From: Gammaproteobacteria bacterium | GTDB taxonomy: Bacteria > Pseudomonadota > Gammaproteobacteria > JACCXJ01 | Direction of reading: 5' to 3' | Assembly (NCBI GenBank): GCA_013697045.1 | Contig: JACCXJ010000031.1 | Location: forward strand, 1-39,901 | Length of the DNA: 39,901 nucleotides | In this document: in pieces, positions 32,421 through 39,901 of the stretch | Layout: each line of letters opens with the position of its first letter | How positions within the stretch are numbered: the stretch's first letter is position 1 | The notes under the pieces: model-generated | The model's input: the letters and a program-made list of their open reading frames with translations, nothing else | Told to the model about the DNA's origin: nothing | The model's database searches: none | Program-made: the position numbers and the translations under genes

Positions 32421-34061
32421 TCACGGGGGGCGTCGTTCACGGAGGCTCTCGGTTCCTCGGGACGACGATCGCAGCCCGGAGGTGCCGTCCACGCCCGCGA
32501 CCGGCCCGAAAAGCGTGCGGAAAAGCCGCCGGGTACGTGGCCGGGCGAAGCGCTCCCAGGACGCGTCGAATGTTGCCCGGTGGGCCTGCTCCTCCTCCCA
32601 CAGCACCGCCTCGAGCATCTTCATAGCCACGCCGGTCTCGGAGGGGGCCGGGTCTTCTAGCACAAGCGCATCGCCGAAATGCCGCAAGAGCCGGCGCTGG
32701 ACATCCCGGTCCACGATCGCCCCGAGGCAGTCTTGCAGGTGTTTCAGCTCCGAGACGACCTGCCGCACGGCATCGGGCCGGTACAGCGACTGAAAGGCCT
32801 CGATGAGATAACGGAGCTTCTTGCCGGTCTTGCGCAGCTCGTGCAGGGCCTCGATGGGCGTGTCCTCCAGGACCGCGAAGCCTTGGCTCAGGAGGGCGTG
32901 GTAGGCGCGCCAGATCGCCCGGCTCGCGAGATCCACGGCGCGGCCGGCCCCGGGCCCATTGTGTACTCGGCGCCTGGCGGCCCGTGCCAGCCAAGCCGGG
33001 TAATCGCGCTTGAAGCCCCGGTAGCGTTCCGAGGTCAAAACCTCGACCAGCCGCCCGTGCTCGACCCGCCTTTGTCGGCCCAGATAGGCACGCAAGGGAT
33101 CGAGATGCGGGCGCCACAGCGACGGCAGTCGTGCCGTGTGCTCATCCAGATCGCCGAGAAACACATCGAGATCGCGCTTGGGACCGGTGATCTTGCCGAG
33201 CCAGGCGAGGTCCGCGCGCGCCTTTTCGTGCTCGCGCTCGGGAAACACCTCGCGCATGCGATTCAGGACCGAGCGCGAGGAGCGCGTCGCGACGCGAAAA
33301 TCGTGCAGGAACTCGACATCGAGGTCGGCGACGATGCCGCCCTCGTTGGCGTCCAGGGTACGGAAATAGGCCCCGAGGACCCGGGCCACCGCTGCGGTCC
33401 CGACCATCGCCGGCTCGAGCGCCACCTTGGGCCGTGCCAGATCTGCCGGTGCCGGCTCGGCGCCCGCCGCGAGCGCGGCCTCGAACGGGTCGCGGGTGGG
33501 GTCCTCGACCCCCTCATGGCCCTCGATGAGCGACTGGACCCGCTCGCGCAGCTTGCGCGGCCCATCGCCCTCATCATCCAATCGCACCCAGCACCCGAGC
33601 GCCTGGTCTGCGACGCGGGCGCCGTTTCGCAGCCGCGCCTCGTCGAGCTCGATCACGAACCCCACCTGGCCTTGTTTATCGAGCACCGAGAGGGGTGTCA
33701 CGCGCGAGCGCACGCGCGCCACCGGGAGCAGCACGCGCGGGCCTGCGAGCGCCGCCAGCTTTTCCCGCAGGGTCCCTTCGGGTAGGTCCCTGGCAAAGCG
33801 TGGAGGCGCCGCAATGGCCTGGGTCGCCAGCGCGCGGCCGTTCCCCAGCGCTCGCAGGAGCAGGCTGCGCTCGCCGCGCCGCTCGCAGAGCTCCAGCACA
33901 CATCCGGCGCGGTACAAGCGCCGATCGGGGGTGTCGTAATAGGTGCGGGACAGGGCATGGACCCGCGCCGGACGCACGCCGAAGGAGGCCCGGAGCGCGG
34001 CGCGCAGCGCCGCCAGGGCGCCCTGGTCCGCGACGCTGTAACAGGGGAGATCTGTGGCCAT
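32421..34061 (-). CDS. CYTH-CHAD domain protein
   Basis: A 546-residue protein. Residues ~1-200 form a CYTH-like triphosphate tunnel domain (TYYDTPDRRLYRAGCVLELCE, LFVIELDEARL-type strands). Residues ~215-510 form a CHAD domain with the conserved basic helices VEFLHDFRVATRSSRSVL and LHELRKTGKKLRYLIEAF. CHAD domains bind inorganic polyphosphate, and CYTH domains act on triphosphates. The CYTH EXEXK signature at the N-terminus is degenerate (no clear ExExK), so its catalysis is doubtful. It lies downstream of the DUF155 gene on the same strand. Confidence 0.85.
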   Translation of the reverse strand: MATDLPCYSVADQGALAALRAALRASFGVRPARVHALSRTYYDTPDRRLYRAGCVLELCERRGERSLLLRALGNGRALATQAIAAPPRFARDLPEGTLREKLAALAGPRVLLPVARVRSRVTPLSVLDKQGQVGFVIELDEARLRNGARVADQALGCWVRLDDEGDGPRKLRERVQSLIEGHEGVEDPTRDPFEAALAAGAEPAPADLARPKVALEPAMVGTAAVARVLGAYFRTLDANEGGIVADLDVEFLHDFRVATRSSRSVLNRMREVFPEREHEKARADLAWLGKITGPKRDLDVFLGDLDEHTARLPSLWRPHLDPLRAYLGRQRRVEHGRLVEVLTSERYRGFKRDYPAWLARAARRRVHNGPGAGRAVDLASRAIWRAYHALLSQGFAVLEDTPIEALHELRKTGKKLRYLIEAFQSLYRPDAVRQVVSELKHLQDCLGAIVDRDVQRRLLRHFGDALVLEDPAPSETGVAMKMLEAVLWEEEQAHRATFDASWERFARPRTRRLFRTLFGPVAGVDGTSGLRSSSRGTESLRERRPP

Positions 34062-34152
34062 ATCGGCGGGGGATCGGGCGGGCGGCGCACGGTAGCGGGT
34101 AAACGATTGAAATTATAGCGCGTTGTCAAGGCGGCCGCGCGCGGCACCCCGA

Positions 34153-34953
34153 TCAGGGGGCCCCATGCCAGAACAACCCGTAGAGACTCAGGACGATCTC
34201 GGCGACGATCAGCACCACGATGTACCACTCGACGCGTAACGCGCGCCGCGACTGCAGGAGGTCGAGCACGGTCTCGACGGTCTGGCCGATGACCTCCAGC
34301 TTGCGGTGCAGGGCCAACTGGCGTTCTTTGAGCTCGAACTCGTCCTCGAGCCGGAGATACAGGCGCTCGAGATCGGGCCGTTCCCACAGGGCATCGGGCT
34401 TCTCCCCGACCTCGACCCGCCCGACCATACGGTGCATGACCAGGAGGTTGCGACCGGTATGCCGGATCAGCTCCCCGGCGCGGACCCCGATCCCGCCGCT
34501 CCGCTCCAGGCGCGCGGCCAGGGGCTCGATGCGGTCGAAGGTGCCGGCCACGCGACGCTCGTACTCGGCCAGCACCACGCTCTTGGCGAGCACATCGGCG
34601 ATGATCTGCAGCCGTTGCAGACCCACGTCCTGGATGTAGAGCTGATCGCGCTCGAAGCCCTCTTTGGCGTCGGGCGCGATGTGGAGGTCCAGGGTCTCGA
34701 TCTCAGGCTCAGGGAGGGGATCGGCGAGGAGCGACTTCACGTGCTCGAGGAACGCGACCTCCTGCAGCGGCGGGACATCGAAGAGCACGGCGGCGCCGTA
34801 GCGAAACAGCACCACGCACCCGTGGTCCGCGATGGGTAAGGTAAGCGGCTGGGCGGCGAGCTGCTCGGCGTTCCGAAGCGGCTTCAGGTCCAAGCGCTCG
34901 CCTAACAGGAGGGCGCGGGCGCGGATCGCGGTCTTGTTGTTGAAGAGCGGCAT
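34153..34953 (-). CDS. RMD1/DUF155 family membrane protein
   Basis: A 266-residue protein with the DUF155 features: an N-terminal strand-rich domain (GCVVLFRYGAAVLFDVPP), the helical segment QIIADVLAKSVVLAEYERRV, a coiled coil (RLYLRLEDEFELKERQLALH) and one C-terminal span (WYIVVLIVAEIVLSLYGLFW). Eukaryotic relatives (Rmd1, Sad1-interacting factors) are mitochondrial or vacuolar; the bacterial role is unknown. The start at ATG 34953 is uncertain because LPPxGHMPLxNxK is conserved upstream in the duplicate at 37.8 kb, so translation may begin earlier. Confidence 0.8.
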   Translation of the reverse strand: MPLFNNKTAIRARALLLGERLDLKPLRNAEQLAAQPLTLPIADHGCVVLFRYGAAVLFDVPPLQEVAFLEHVKSLLADPLPEPEIETLDLHIAPDAKEGFERDQLYIQDVGLQRLQIIADVLAKSVVLAEYERRVAGTFDRIEPLAARLERSGGIGVRAGELIRHTGRNLLVMHRMVGRVEVGEKPDALWERPDLERLYLRLEDEFELKERQLALHRKLEVIGQTVETVLDLLQSRRALRVEWYIVVLIVAEIVLSLYGLFWHGAP

Positions 34954-35143
34954 GTGCCCGTGCGGCGGGAGACCCCAAGAGTGTGGCGCCCGAACCGCCG
35001 GCACCGCCTGCGCGATGAGCCGCGCAAACGACGACCGACGGGGACGGGCGAGCCGATAGCCTAGTCTACCCGAAGGGCGCGGACATGCCCGATGGTCCCT
35101 CCGGCTCGCAGTGTGGCGAACGCCTCCGCGGAACGCCGCCATT
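34919..35143. repeat. left copy of a ~220-bp duplicated segment
   Basis: This stretch matches 37790-38012 with roughly 75-80% identity (landmarks GGCATGTGCCC, CCGCCGGCACCG, ACGACGACCGACGGGGAC, CTAGTCTACCC, GAACGCCTCCGCGG). On the minus strand it holds a dead fragment of the glycosyltransferase C-terminus (RRSAEAFATLRAGG) followed by the start of the complete DUF155 gene. Confidence 0.8.
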
Positions 35144-35164
35144 CGCGCGTGCCGTGCTCAGCGC

Positions 35165-35240
35165 CCGTTCGTGTCAGGATGATGAAACGGACTGATGCCG
35201 CCCCGGGCTTGCGAAGTCGGGTTGTGTTACCTATCCTCCT
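35165..35240. repeat. left copy of the hydrolase upstream region
   Basis: Matches 39813-39901 (CGTGTCAGGATGATGAAACG, GATGCCGCCC, CTTGCGAAGTCGGGTT, GTTACCTATCCT). The right copy carries about 14 extra bases in the middle. In the right copy this sequence lies directly upstream of the LpxH-like gene. Here it is only about 20 bp from the glycosyltransferase fragment, so the hydrolase gene has been deleted from this copy. Confidence 0.8.
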
Positions 35241-35278
35241 GTGATATGGATGCCGGGCTCCGCAGGATGTCAAGTTAG

Positions 35279-36460
35279 ATGCCAGAACAAAATAACCGCG
35301 GCACCCTAGCATTGGCGGTCAGCGGTGGGGGGGCTAGGGCCGCGTATCAGGTGGGATTTCTGGAGTGGCTCGCGGAGCATTACCCCGATCTCGAAATCCC
35401 GATCTTGACGGGGGTCTCGGCCGGGGCGATCAACACGGCCTACCTGGCCAATCACCACGGGACGTTTCGCGAGAAGGTCAAAGGCCTGGCGGCCGTCTGG
35501 GAAACGCTTACCCTGGATCGGGTCTTTCGAGTCGACGCCGGCTCTATTGCAGGTCACGTCGCCCGTTGGGGCGTGCGCCTGCTCATGGGGAGGGCCTCGC
35601 ATGTCATGGAGATCCGCAGCTTGTTCGACGCCTCTCCGTTGCAGGCTTTATTGGAGCAGGTATTGAAACCGGTATCGGGTGTGCTGGCCGGCATTCACGA
35701 GAATCTGTTAGAACGCCGCCTACGTGCGGTCGCCATTACGACATCGAATTATTCTACGGGCCAGGCGGTCACCTGGGTCCAGGGGATAAATCTGGTGCCC
35801 TGGACACGCGCCCACCGTAAAGCCATCCCCTGTACGCTGTGCTTAGATCACATATTAGCCTCTGCCTCTCTACCGCTTTTCTTCCCGGCGGTGAATATCG
35901 GTGGATGCTGGTATGGTGATGGCGGAATCAGAATGACGGCACCGCTGTCGCCGGCTGTGCACCTGGGCGCCGATCGCATCTTGGCGATTTCGACCAAATA
36001 TGCACCGTCCAGCGAGGAAGCTGAGCGCCCGAATATCAACGGCTATCCACCTCCCGTGCAAGTGCTGGGCGCCCTGTATAATGCGCTCTTCCTCGATGTT
36101 TTTGATTACGATGCCTTGCGTATCGAACGTATCAACTTCCTGGTGAAGCAGGTACCGCTCGACAAGCGGGATGGCTTGCGTTGTGTGGACCTATTGCTGC
36201 TGAGGCCCTCATGCGATCTGGGCAAGCTCGCGAACGCATATGAGCTCGAGCTTCCGAGCGCCTTCCGTTTCATGACCCGGGGTCTGGGCACGCAAGAGAC
36301 CCGATCAAATGATATCTTAAGCGTATTGATGTTTCAGCCAGACTACCTGCGGCAATTGCTGGATTTAGGCTACGCGGATGCAGGAGCGCGCCGCGAGGAA
36401 ATCGCCGCGTTCTTTGCGAAAAGCCCGCTGTGCCCGGATCCGGCGAACGGTGTGATGTAA
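35279..36460 (+). CDS. patatin-like phospholipase
   Basis: A 393-residue serine lipid acylhydrolase. The oxyanion motif SGGGARAAYQVGFLEWL is at about residues 15-30. The catalytic Ser lies in GVSAG (about residue 48) and the catalytic Asp in YGDGG (about residue 215). The ~150 C-terminal residues extend beyond the patatin core and include predicted helices (VQVLGALYNALFLDVFDYD). No signal peptide is seen, so it is probably cytoplasmic or peripheral on the membrane. It faces right, between the two copies of the duplicated segment, and converges with the antiporter gene. Confidence 0.9.
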   Translation: MPEQNNRGTLALAVSGGGARAAYQVGFLEWLAEHYPDLEIPILTGVSAGAINTAYLANHHGTFREKVKGLAAVWETLTLDRVFRVDAGSIAGHVARWGVRLLMGRASHVMEIRSLFDASPLQALLEQVLKPVSGVLAGIHENLLERRLRAVAITTSNYSTGQAVTWVQGINLVPWTRAHRKAIPCTLCLDHILASASLPLFFPAVNIGGCWYGDGGIRMTAPLSPAVHLGADRILAISTKYAPSSEEAERPNINGYPPPVQVLGALYNALFLDVFDYDALRIERINFLVKQVPLDKRDGLRCVDLLLLRPSCDLGKLANAYELELPSAFRFMTRGLGTQETRSNDILSVLMFQPDYLRQLLDLGYADAGARREEIAAFFAKSPLCPDPANGVM

Positions 36461-36539
36461 TCGCACGTGGCGTATCGTTGTTCGGTGGGAAGGTGGCAAC
36501 GCAAGAGTTTCGAATCGCTTGCCATAAAGGATCTGCTTT

Positions 36540-37683
36540 TCATTTCTCGAAGATGAGCGCCAGATAGGCGAGAAACAGGAGCAGATGCACCGCCCCGAGT
36601 AGGACGTTGGTTCGTTCAAGGGCGAAGGTCAGCATGCTCACCGCCAAGGTCAATAACAGCAAGGTCGTATCGACGGCATTGAGTCCGAGGATGATCGTTC
36701 TGTCCGTAATGAAGCCGATGGTGAGGACCGCCGGGATCGTCAGGCTGAATGCTCGACAGCGCGGTTCCCAGCGAGAGATTAATGGAGCGCTGAAGCTGGT
36801 TCGCCAGCGCGGCTCGGACAGCGGCCAGGGATTCGGGAGACAGTATCAGCACCGCCACGAGCAGACCCCCGAGCGCGGCAGGCGCACCCAAAACGCGGAT
36901 GCCGTAGTCAATCGGCACCGCGATCCGTTTGGCGAGGACAACGATTGGGACGACATACGCCAGCAGCAGGAGGCCGTGATAGCCCACCGACTGAACTAGA
37001 AGCCTGCCATGCATGTCCGCACCTTGGTGATCCGTCGTAGCCGCCGCGGCGCCGGGCGAAACAAAATAGTCGCGATGGCGCATGGTCTGGATCGCGAGGA
37101 ACACACCATACAAAACCACCGACATAAAGATGAGAAACACGGACTGGAGTGGGGAGAGGGTGGGTCCCGCAGACGACACGGTGAACTTCGGCAGCACCAG
37201 TCCGAGCACCGACAAGGGCAGGATCACGGCCAGAAAGGCGTTCGCCCCGTAGAGGTTGTACGTCTGCTCGTGGTAGCGCAAGCCGCCGAACAAGAGGCTG
37301 GTGCCCACCAGCCCGTTCAGTACGATCATCACGATTGCGAGCATGGTGTCGCGCGCCAGCGAAGATCCCCCTTGGCCGGTGTACATCACCGCCGCGAGCA
37401 TCATCATCTCCATGCCGCTCATGGAGAGCGTCAGCACGAGCGCACCCAAAGGCTCGCCGAGCCGCGCGGCGAGCCCCTCTGCATGGCGCACCACGGCGAA
37501 CGCCGAAACCAGAATCGCAGCGAAGAGCCATCCCAGCAGGAAGGCGAACCAGACAGGATCGGAGAGATCGGCGAGCCATTCGGTCCCGAACACGAGAAAA
37601 AGCGCCGTGGTGGCGACGCTCACCGGGAGCGGCCATTCGGTCCGCAACCTAGAAATGAGCTGCCGTGTGCGCGGCGTCGTCAT
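36540..37683 (-). pseudogene. Ca2+/H+ antiporter (ChaA/Cax type), frameshifted near the C-terminus
   Basis: The first ~305 residues contain about nine spans and the exchanger motifs LVLTLSMSGMEMMMLAAVM, then YTG, and DTMLAIVMIVLNGLVG, matching ChaA-type exchangers. At about 36752 an extra base (ATTCAGCCTG for ATTxGCCTG) shifts the frame. The true last spans (LTIPAVLTIGFITDRTIIL, LLLLTLAVSMLTFALE, HLLLFLAYLALIFEK) continue in the next frame to TGA at 36540-36542. The function would be cytoplasmic Ca2+ (or Na+/K+) extrusion. The acceptor glutamate is moved or replaced compared with the usual motif, which should be checked. Confidence 0.82.
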
Positions 37684-37870
37684 AGAGATACCGGGCGCGA
37701 CTTCGTCTGACAGCTTCGCGTATTGGGTGCCCGGGACGCCGGCTCAGAGCCTCGGGGCCGGAAGAAAAGACGCTCACCGTCCGCCTGCATTCGCGGATCG
37801 TGCTCTTGTCATTCAAAAGCGGCATGTGCCCATACGGAGGGAGAACCGCGATGGTGGCGCCCAAACCGCC
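37650..37870 (-). pseudogene. 5' remnant of a second DUF155 gene
   Basis: The minus-strand frame reads LPPYGHMPLLNDKSTIREC, matching LPPHGHMPLFNNKTAIRAR at the start of the intact DUF155 gene near 34.95 kb. It then diverges into unrelated sequence and stops. It follows the 3' end of the glycosyltransferase, the same neighbourhood as in the left copy. Confidence 0.7.
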
Positions 37871-38012
37871 GGCACCGTGCGGATGAGCCGCGCGAACGAC
37901 GACCGACGGGGACCGGCGAAACGAGGGGCTAGTCTACCCCAAGGGCCCCGACATGGCCGATGTTCCCGGCGGCTCGATCAGGGTGACGAACGCCTCCGCG
38001 GAGCGGCGCCAT
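37790..38012. repeat. right copy of the ~220-bp duplicated segment
   Basis: Counterpart of 34919-35143. Here it contains the genuine 3' end of the complete glycosyltransferase gene and the truncated beginning of a DUF155 gene. Confidence 0.8.
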
Positions 38013-38968
38013 GAGTAACGGCGGGCGTGGGCGATGCACTCCTCGCCGCCGAGCTTGAGGGCCTCCACGGTGGCCCTCTGCAGGTCCTCGTGCAAGACGC
38101 CGGTACGGTTCTGGATGACCACATCGCTCGGCCCGGGCACCGGGTAGGCCGCCACCGGGACCCCCGAGGCCATGGCCTCCAGCAACACCAGTCCGAAGGT
38201 ATCGGTGCGGCTCGGGAAGACGAAAACATCGGCCGCGGCCAGGTAGGCGGCGAGGTCCTCACCATGCCGGTATCCGACGAAGCGCGCCTCGGGATAACGA
38301 TGGGCGAGTCTCTCTCGAGCCGGCCCGTCTCCGACCACGAACTTGCTGCCCGGCAGGGCCAGGGACAGGAACGCCTCCAGGTTCTTTTCGATGGCGATCC
38401 TTCCAACGTACATGGCGATGGGGCGAGGGGCGTCCAGAAAGCCTTTGTCGCGCGGATGGAACAGGCCGGTGTCGACGCCCCGCGCCCATACCACCACGTT
38501 GCGGAACCCGTGCGCCGCGAGCCGTTTCCGGAACGATACGGTCGGCACCAGGGTCGAGCGCGCGCTCCCGTGGAAGCGCCGCAGGTAGGCATAGGTCCAA
38601 TCGATCGGCACCGGCCAGCGCAGCCGCAGGTATTCCGGGAACTGGGTATGGTAGGAGCTGGTGAAGCACAGGGCGGCCCTGAGACAATAACGGCGCACGG
38701 CGTGCCCGATCGGCCCCTCGGTGGCGATATGGACCGCGTGGGGCGCGAACTTGCTCAAGTGCTCGGCGACCCCCCGCCTCGGTGCGATGGCGAGCCGGAT
38801 GGAGGGGTAGCTCGGGCACGGGATGGTACGGAAGAGCCCCGGGTTCAGGACCAGGACCTCGAAGCCGAGCGCCCCGAGCTCGGCTGCCGTGCGCTCCAAG
38901 GTGGTGACGACCCCATTGACCTGGGGGTGCCAGGCATCGGTCGCGATGGCGATGCGTGTCGGGGTCAA
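37934..38968 (-). CDS. GT4 family glycosyltransferase
   Basis: A 344-residue GT-B glycosyltransferase. The N-terminal domain begins IAIATDAWHPQVNGVVTTL, the donor-binding half starts about residue 185 (MYVGRIAIEKNLEAFL), and FPSRTDTFGLVLLEAMASG is the E-x7-E nucleotide-sugar motif. It resembles the alpha-mannosyltransferases (MgtA-type) that decorate diacylglycerol or lipid intermediates. Acceptor and sugar are inferred from family only. It follows the LpxH-like gene by 10 bases, implying one lipid-related operon. Confidence 0.85.
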   Translation of the reverse strand: MTPTRIAIATDAWHPQVNGVVTTLERTAAELGALGFEVLVLNPGLFRTIPCPSYPSIRLAIAPRRGVAEHLSKFAPHAVHIATEGPIGHAVRRYCLRAALCFTSSYHTQFPEYLRLRWPVPIDWTYAYLRRFHGSARSTLVPTVSFRKRLAAHGFRNVVVWARGVDTGLFHPRDKGFLDAPRPIAMYVGRIAIEKNLEAFLSLALPGSKFVVGDGPARERLAHRYPEARFVGYRHGEDLAAYLAAADVFVFPSRTDTFGLVLLEAMASGVPVAAYPVPGPSDVVIQNRTGVLHEDLQRATVEALKLGGEECIAHARRYSWRRSAEAFVTLIEPPGTSAMSGPLG

Positions 38969-38978
38969 ACCCCTGGGA

Positions 38979-39773
38979 TCAGGCCGCGGCCTGCACCTGT
39001 TTGAGCGAGTGACAGGCGTCGGACCAGTGGATCAGCTCGAGCGTCCCGTCATGAAGCTCGACGAGCGCCGTGCAGCTCTCCACCCAATCCCCGCTGTTGC
39101 AATACAGAACCCCGTTCACGTGGGTGATCTCGGCGCGATGGATGTGACCGCAGATGAGCCCATCGACCTGCTGGCGGGCCGCCTCATAGGCCACCGCCGA
39201 CTCGAAGCTCGACATGTACTGCACGGCGGTCTTGACCTTGTGTTTCATGAAGGCCGCGAGCGACCAGTAACCGAACCCGAAGCGCCTGCGCACCTGGTTC
39301 ACCACCCCGTTCAGACGCAGCAGCCAGTCGTAGGCCTTGGTCCCGAGCAGCGCCACGGCCTTGGAGCACTGCACCACGGTGTCGAACTCATCGCCGTGCG
39401 TCACCAGGAAACGCCGGCCGTCGGCCGTGGTGTGGATCACGCGGTTCTGGATCGAGAGGTTGCCGAAGGAAAGACCCACGTGATCCCGGAACACCTCGTC
39501 GTGGTTGCCGGGTATATACACGACGCGCGTGCCGTGCTTGGCCTTGCCGAGCAGCGTGCGCACCACGTTGTTGTGCTCCTGGGGCCAATAGAGCCGCTTC
39601 TTCATGCACCAGACATCGATGATGTCGCCGACCAGATAAAGCTGATCGCAGCGCGTCGAGTGCAGGAAGTCGAGGAGGAACTCCGCCTTGCAGCCCGAGA
39701 AGCCGAGGTGGACGTCCGAGATCCAAACGGTGCGGTAATAGGCCGGCCGATCCGTCGCGTGCAGCGTCTTCAT
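38979..39773 (-). CDS. UDP-2,3-diacylglucosamine diphosphatase-like metallophosphoesterase
   Basis: A 264-residue calcineurin-like hydrolase with every metal motif in order: ISDVHLGFSGCKAEFL, LVGDIIDVW, YIPGNHDEVFRDH, LVTHGDEFD and GLICGHIHRAE. It matches the LpxH-related family, often annotated UDP-2,3-diacylglucosamine diphosphatase (fourth step of lipid A synthesis). Many members of this longer type act on other lipid pyrophosphates, so the exact substrate is uncertain. The glycosyltransferase follows in the same direction. Its upstream region is the right copy of the repeat at 39813-39901. Confidence 0.85.
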   Translation of the reverse strand: MKTLHATDRPAYYRTVWISDVHLGFSGCKAEFLLDFLHSTRCDQLYLVGDIIDVWCMKKRLYWPQEHNNVVRTLLGKAKHGTRVVYIPGNHDEVFRDHVGLSFGNLSIQNRVIHTTADGRRFLVTHGDEFDTVVQCSKAVALLGTKAYDWLLRLNGVVNQVRRRFGFGYWSLAAFMKHKVKTAVQYMSSFESAVAYEAARQQVDGLICGHIHRAEITHVNGVLYCNSGDWVESCTALVELHDGTLELIHWSDACHSLKQVQAAA

Positions 39774-39812
39774 GCCCGTAGCCCTGTCCCCATGGAACGG
39801 CAGGCTAGCACC

Positions 39813-39901
39813 CCTTCGTGTCAGGATGATGAAACGACGCGATGCCGCCCTGGGCTAGGCGCGGGTTGGCTTGCGAAGTCGGGTTGGGTTACCTATCCTT
39901 C
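39813..39901. repeat. right copy of the hydrolase upstream region
   Basis: Counterpart of 35165-35240, starting 40 bases upstream of the LpxH-like start codon and running to the end of the window. It may continue beyond. It probably contains the operon's promoter, although no consensus pair stands out. Confidence 0.75.

Follow-up and report, generated by a model that had tools for sequence, protein, structure and literature searches.

A divided operon in a gammaproteobacterial contig: two diverged copies of an LpxH-like/GT4/DUF155 unit, each retaining different genes

The DNA analysed here (the window) is a contig of 39,901 bases from an assembly of 4.57 Mb in 417 contigs, with an estimated completeness of 90.04% and contamination of 1.57%. 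It contains two real and well-preserved operon copies that probably reflect duplication and differential loss, resembling the SNAP model; the case is new and the process is already known. The explanation that we consider probable as a whole is that an ancestral unit, comprising an upstream element with a Pho-box-like site, a PlcP-like hydrolase, an Agt-like GT4 and DUF155, gave rise to a second copy in the same orientation, and that the two then drifted apart to about 85% identity. Subsequently, the left copy would have lost the hydrolase, except for 15 bases, and most of GT4, and the right copy would have retained the hydrolase and GT4 but no more of DUF155 than its first 11 codons. The gene set would thus now be divided between the copies, such that losing either would remove a unique gene. 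Features of the locus are summarized in Table 1; the gene identities given in a first-pass annotation of the sequence were upheld by Pfam.

Table 1. Features of the duplicated locus (window coordinates)
Feature	Coordinates	Strand	Evidence
DUF155 (RMND1/Sif2 family), intact copy, 266 aa	34153..34953	-	Pfam PF02582, E 4.4e-35
Block 1, left copy: start of DUF155, intergenic segment, GT4 tail relic	34920..35142	-	186/219 identity
GT4 3'-end relic (RRSAEAFATL...)	35072..35142	-	60 identities, 11 mismatches, 5 gap positions
LpxH-like gene relic, 15-base exact	35144..35158	-	Identical to 39524-39538
Upstream element (block 2), left copy	35160..35237	-	71/78 to 39807-39899
Pho-box-like site, left copy, GTTTCAT-CATC-CTGACAC	35171..35188	-	11/14 consensus positions
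Patatin-like phospholipase, between copies	35279..36460	+	Pfam PF01734, E 3.3e-28
ChaA/CaCA-type cation/proton antiporter, broken frame	36616..37683	-	Pfam PF01699
DUF155 start relic, 11 codons, downstream of GT4	37792..37825	-	Alignment to left copy
Right copy of block 1	37792..38012	-	Alignment to 34920-35142
GT4 glycosyltransferase, probable Agt (glycolipid synthase)	37934..38968	-	Pfam PF13692/PF00534/PF13439; pair conserved
LpxH-like metallophosphoesterase, probable PlcP (phospholipase C)	38979..39773	-	Pfam PF12850/PF00149
Upstream element, right copy	39807..39899	-	Alignment to 35160-35237
Pho-box-like site, right copy	39818..39835	-	44 bases before LpxH-like ATG

The two copies match in two blocks. 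Block 1 (34920-35142 against 37792-38012) has 186 identities in 219 aligned columns with 6 gap positions, and its identity is similar throughout, with 82% in the DUF155 start, 86% in the intergenic segment and 85% in the GT4 tail. Block 2 (35160-35237 against 39807-39899) has 71 identities in 78 positions, with 15 gap positions; its apparently higher conservation relative to block 1 is not significant (p 0.25). The alignment scores of 139 and 45 for blocks 1 and 2 are far beyond the maxima of 18 and 20 obtained from 200 shuffles each, which bears out the pair of matching blocks proposed in the first-pass annotation. Neither repeat has a further copy elsewhere in the genome.

In transcription order, the right block consists of the upstream element, the LpxH-like gene, GT4 and the first 11 codons of DUF155, and the left block consists of the upstream element, a hydrolase-gene relic, the tail of GT4 and DUF155 in full. 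These gene orders give an ancestral order of upstream element, LpxH-like gene, GT4 and DUF155. The hydrolase relic lies in the 17 bases between the two matched pieces of the left block, 15 of which (35144-35158) are identical to 39524-39538, on the same strand as the hydrolase gene and in collinear order, with the GT4 tail on one side and the upstream element on the other. A match of 15 was reached by no 17-mer among 3000 shuffled and 1000 genomic ones (maximum 13). The left copy therefore formerly held the LpxH-like gene, which adds support to the earlier proposal that a single unit once existed and was duplicated; the same proposal described the left block as having no hydrolase, which is correct for the gene but not for these surviving bases. 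The GT4 tail relic of the left copy is disrupted by indels relative to the right copy. The left copy has certainly lost the LpxH-like gene and most of GT4, and at least two deletions are the simplest reading of the hydrolase relic. The truncated DUF155 start in the right block was also confirmed, as 34 bases encoding 11 codons (MPLLNDKSTIR versus MPLFNNKTAIR), and no DUF155 remnants above chance were found in 37684-37791. This truncation may be a loss or may mark the end point of the duplicated (or imported) segment. Accordingly, of the reciprocal trimming that had been suggested, the loss from the left copy stands and a different loss from the right copy depends on which of these two origins applies.

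The LpxH-like/GT4 pair is old and common in Gammaproteobacteria. Of the 28 other class homologues of the hydrolase that were closest and were examined by tblastn, 20 have a GT4 gene next in line, and the pair also occurs in G001, the only family relative in the comparison set, which included no congener. Given this wide distribution in the class and the occurrence in the relative, the left copy is the deletion derivative. DUF155 is patchily distributed (22 of 369 class genomes at E<=1e-60) and was not detected in G001 at E<=1e-20, so that the family relative has the pair without DUF155. The undivided three-gene operon that the first-pass annotation proposed to seek in relatives was found neither in the 22 DUF155-bearing class genomes nor in the 80 loci of a genome-contig profile search, for which a three-sequence alignment, the narrower of two, was used. 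This absence from the genomes and loci searched counts against the history proposed here. DUF155 was never a neighbour of the pair in about 100 loci, and so far this window is the only known instance of the three-gene unit.

The hydrolase was rejected as LpxH itself (UDP-2,3-diacylglucosamine diphosphatase), as it scores far under the curated cut-offs of the NCBIfam LpxH models (50.4 versus 134 and 43.5 versus 190.35). PlcP is an LpxH-like metallophosphoesterase. The metallophosphoesterase gene is followed directly by the glycosyltransferase gene, as in PlcP-Agt, and, judged by this architecture and the possible Pho box, the pair is most likely to be a PlcP-Agt operon of phosphate-starvation lipid remodelling, with the enzyme activities predicted accordingly from the analysis. 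Published plcP-agt operons, which swap phospholipids for glycolipids in phosphate starvation, have the gene order seen here, with a phospholipase C gene, a glycosyltransferase gene immediately after it and Pho boxes upstream (PMC4796936, PMC8528852). The likeness is one of architecture rather than of comparison with tested PlcP or Agt enzymes and, unlike in those operons, DUF155 belonged to the unit here.

The upstream element contains, on the minus strand, the site GTTTCATCATCCTGACAC, which agrees with CTGTCAT-N4-CTGTCA(T/C) at 11 of 14 positions, a score that is expected by chance about 3.7 times per window. The 18 bases of the site are identical in the two copies. When the 148-base stretch upstream of the hydrolase was shuffled 500 times, no shuffle reached the score of the right site, 44 bases before the ATG. 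Among 29 homologous upstream regions, the best Pho-box-like site reached p<0.05 in six, two of them from one genus. By itself the site is only suggestive; its position and the published Pho boxes add weight to the Pho-box reading, and the operon may be under Pho regulation. The first-pass annotation also held that DUF155 had been separated from its original promoter, which the left copy does not support in that form: its upstream element, with the identical site, precedes DUF155 by about 206 bases (the site itself is separated from the ATG by 217 bases), and the difference is confined to the bases where the -10 hexamer would be expected (TAGCCT in the right copy, TGAGCA in the left). The left hexamer is located at the deletion edge, such that the site is kept and the DUF155 promoter may be damaged at -10. 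No sigma-70 consensus promoters were found. An RNA element in the upstream repeat was considered and rejected, as Rfam gave no match and neither copy folds better than shuffled sequence.

The origin of the copies can be judged in part from the patatin and antiporter genes that separate them. The genome has no second antiporter and no second patatin apart from a broken, different gene on contig C219 (5640-6760; frame change and stop), which adjoins miaB/phoH/ybeY/corC/lnt. From sequence comparison, the C219 gene, with 71-75% identity to the G001 patatin, appears to be the native orthologue and the intact window copy, with 61%, does not; the window patatin was therefore probably acquired horizontally. 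The patatin part is poorer in G+C: the bins between 35500 and 36999 have 57-59%, versus 63-69% from 38000 onward and 68% for 34000-34999. The antiporter loses its reading frame near 36745, and its C-terminal portion runs on in another frame to about 36540, either as a pseudogene or owing to a sequence error; the gene scores below the cut-offs of PRK10599/TIGR00846. The two genes do not behave as a travelling pair, since an antiporter adjoins none of 29 patatin loci, and mobile-element borders were rejected for want of inverted repeats at the two ends of the stretch.

Because the patatin looks acquired and lies in a G+C-poor stretch, the import of a homologous fragment is a serious rival to duplication within the lineage, albeit a distinctly less probable one. 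A foreign patatin, the antiporter and a homologous operon piece from a related species would have recombined into the genome at this operon, the duplicate would be a xenolog and the DUF155 truncation would be the import edge rather than a later loss. The 15% divergence between the copies suits this account. No donor was found, the borders have no inverted repeats, and the deletion relics of the left copy mean that a full copy was once there, with which an import is still compatible. A simple tandem duplication, for its part, leads one to expect a patatin/antiporter copy upstream of the right copy, where the contig ends, two bases past the upstream-element repeat (39899; contig end 39901); the lack of such a copy in this genome, about 90% complete, counts against duplication. 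As the contig ends at the right repeat, tandem duplication and import look alike here. We infer duplication within the lineage, with the patatin and antiporter inserted or retained between the copies. A chimeric assembly, in which two strains or species from one metagenome bin were joined, is very improbable: the number of contigs, the estimated contamination and the contig end at the right repeat would be in keeping with one, but the longest exact word common to both copies is just 22 bases, which makes a k-mer assembly join unlikely, and a chimera leaves the internal deletion junction of the left copy unexplained. Chance similarity or a common intergenic repeat is refuted by the shuffle scores and the genome search.

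Tandem duplication with random loss is a model known from mitochondrial genomes. The SNAP model comprises duplication, selection, inactivation and fixation (Brandis and Hughes 2020, PMC7055797). As in SNAP, two homologous copies are present in one genome and the new order cannot collapse without losing a unique gene, and the segmental duplication proposed here may have been followed by the loss of different genes per copy; the scale there is tens of kilobases to more than a megabase and the visible unit here is about 2-3 kb. Unlike in SNAP, the operon is split rather than reshuffled, and the likeness covers the gene layout, not the selection step. For asymmetric loss in the ribosomal operon cluster, an explanation offered for operon alteration is that a second copy arises by duplication, or comes in from a relative, and one of the copies is then lost (PMC8046335); here, by contrast, physical relics of both copies persist side by side. 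Duplication and differential loss are rarely seen at an intermediate stage in which the relics on both sides can still be read, and this locus shows how an operon may be divided into two units, each retaining the same upstream site.

To our knowledge, a role for DUF155 (RMND1 family) in bacteria has not been established, and the probable phosphate-starvation operon in which it once stood hints at its function. Three Allochromatium DUF155 genes (L069, L083 and L086) have 12/14 Pho-box-like sites at about -125, -87 and -87. In view of the Allochromatium sites, and of the operon with a Pho-box-like site that it formerly shared with the probable PlcP-Agt pair, DUF155 might take part in a phosphate-starvation lipid-remodelling response in some Gammaproteobacteria, a suggestion from sequence context that we regard as unlikely. 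No general enrichment of Pho-box-like sites was found upstream of DUF155 (6 of 89 regions at p<=0.05). In Allochromatium L083 and L086, a CATAAT hexamer follows the site. In the window, a CHAD-domain protein gene (32421-34061) lies directly 3' of DUF155 on the same strand.
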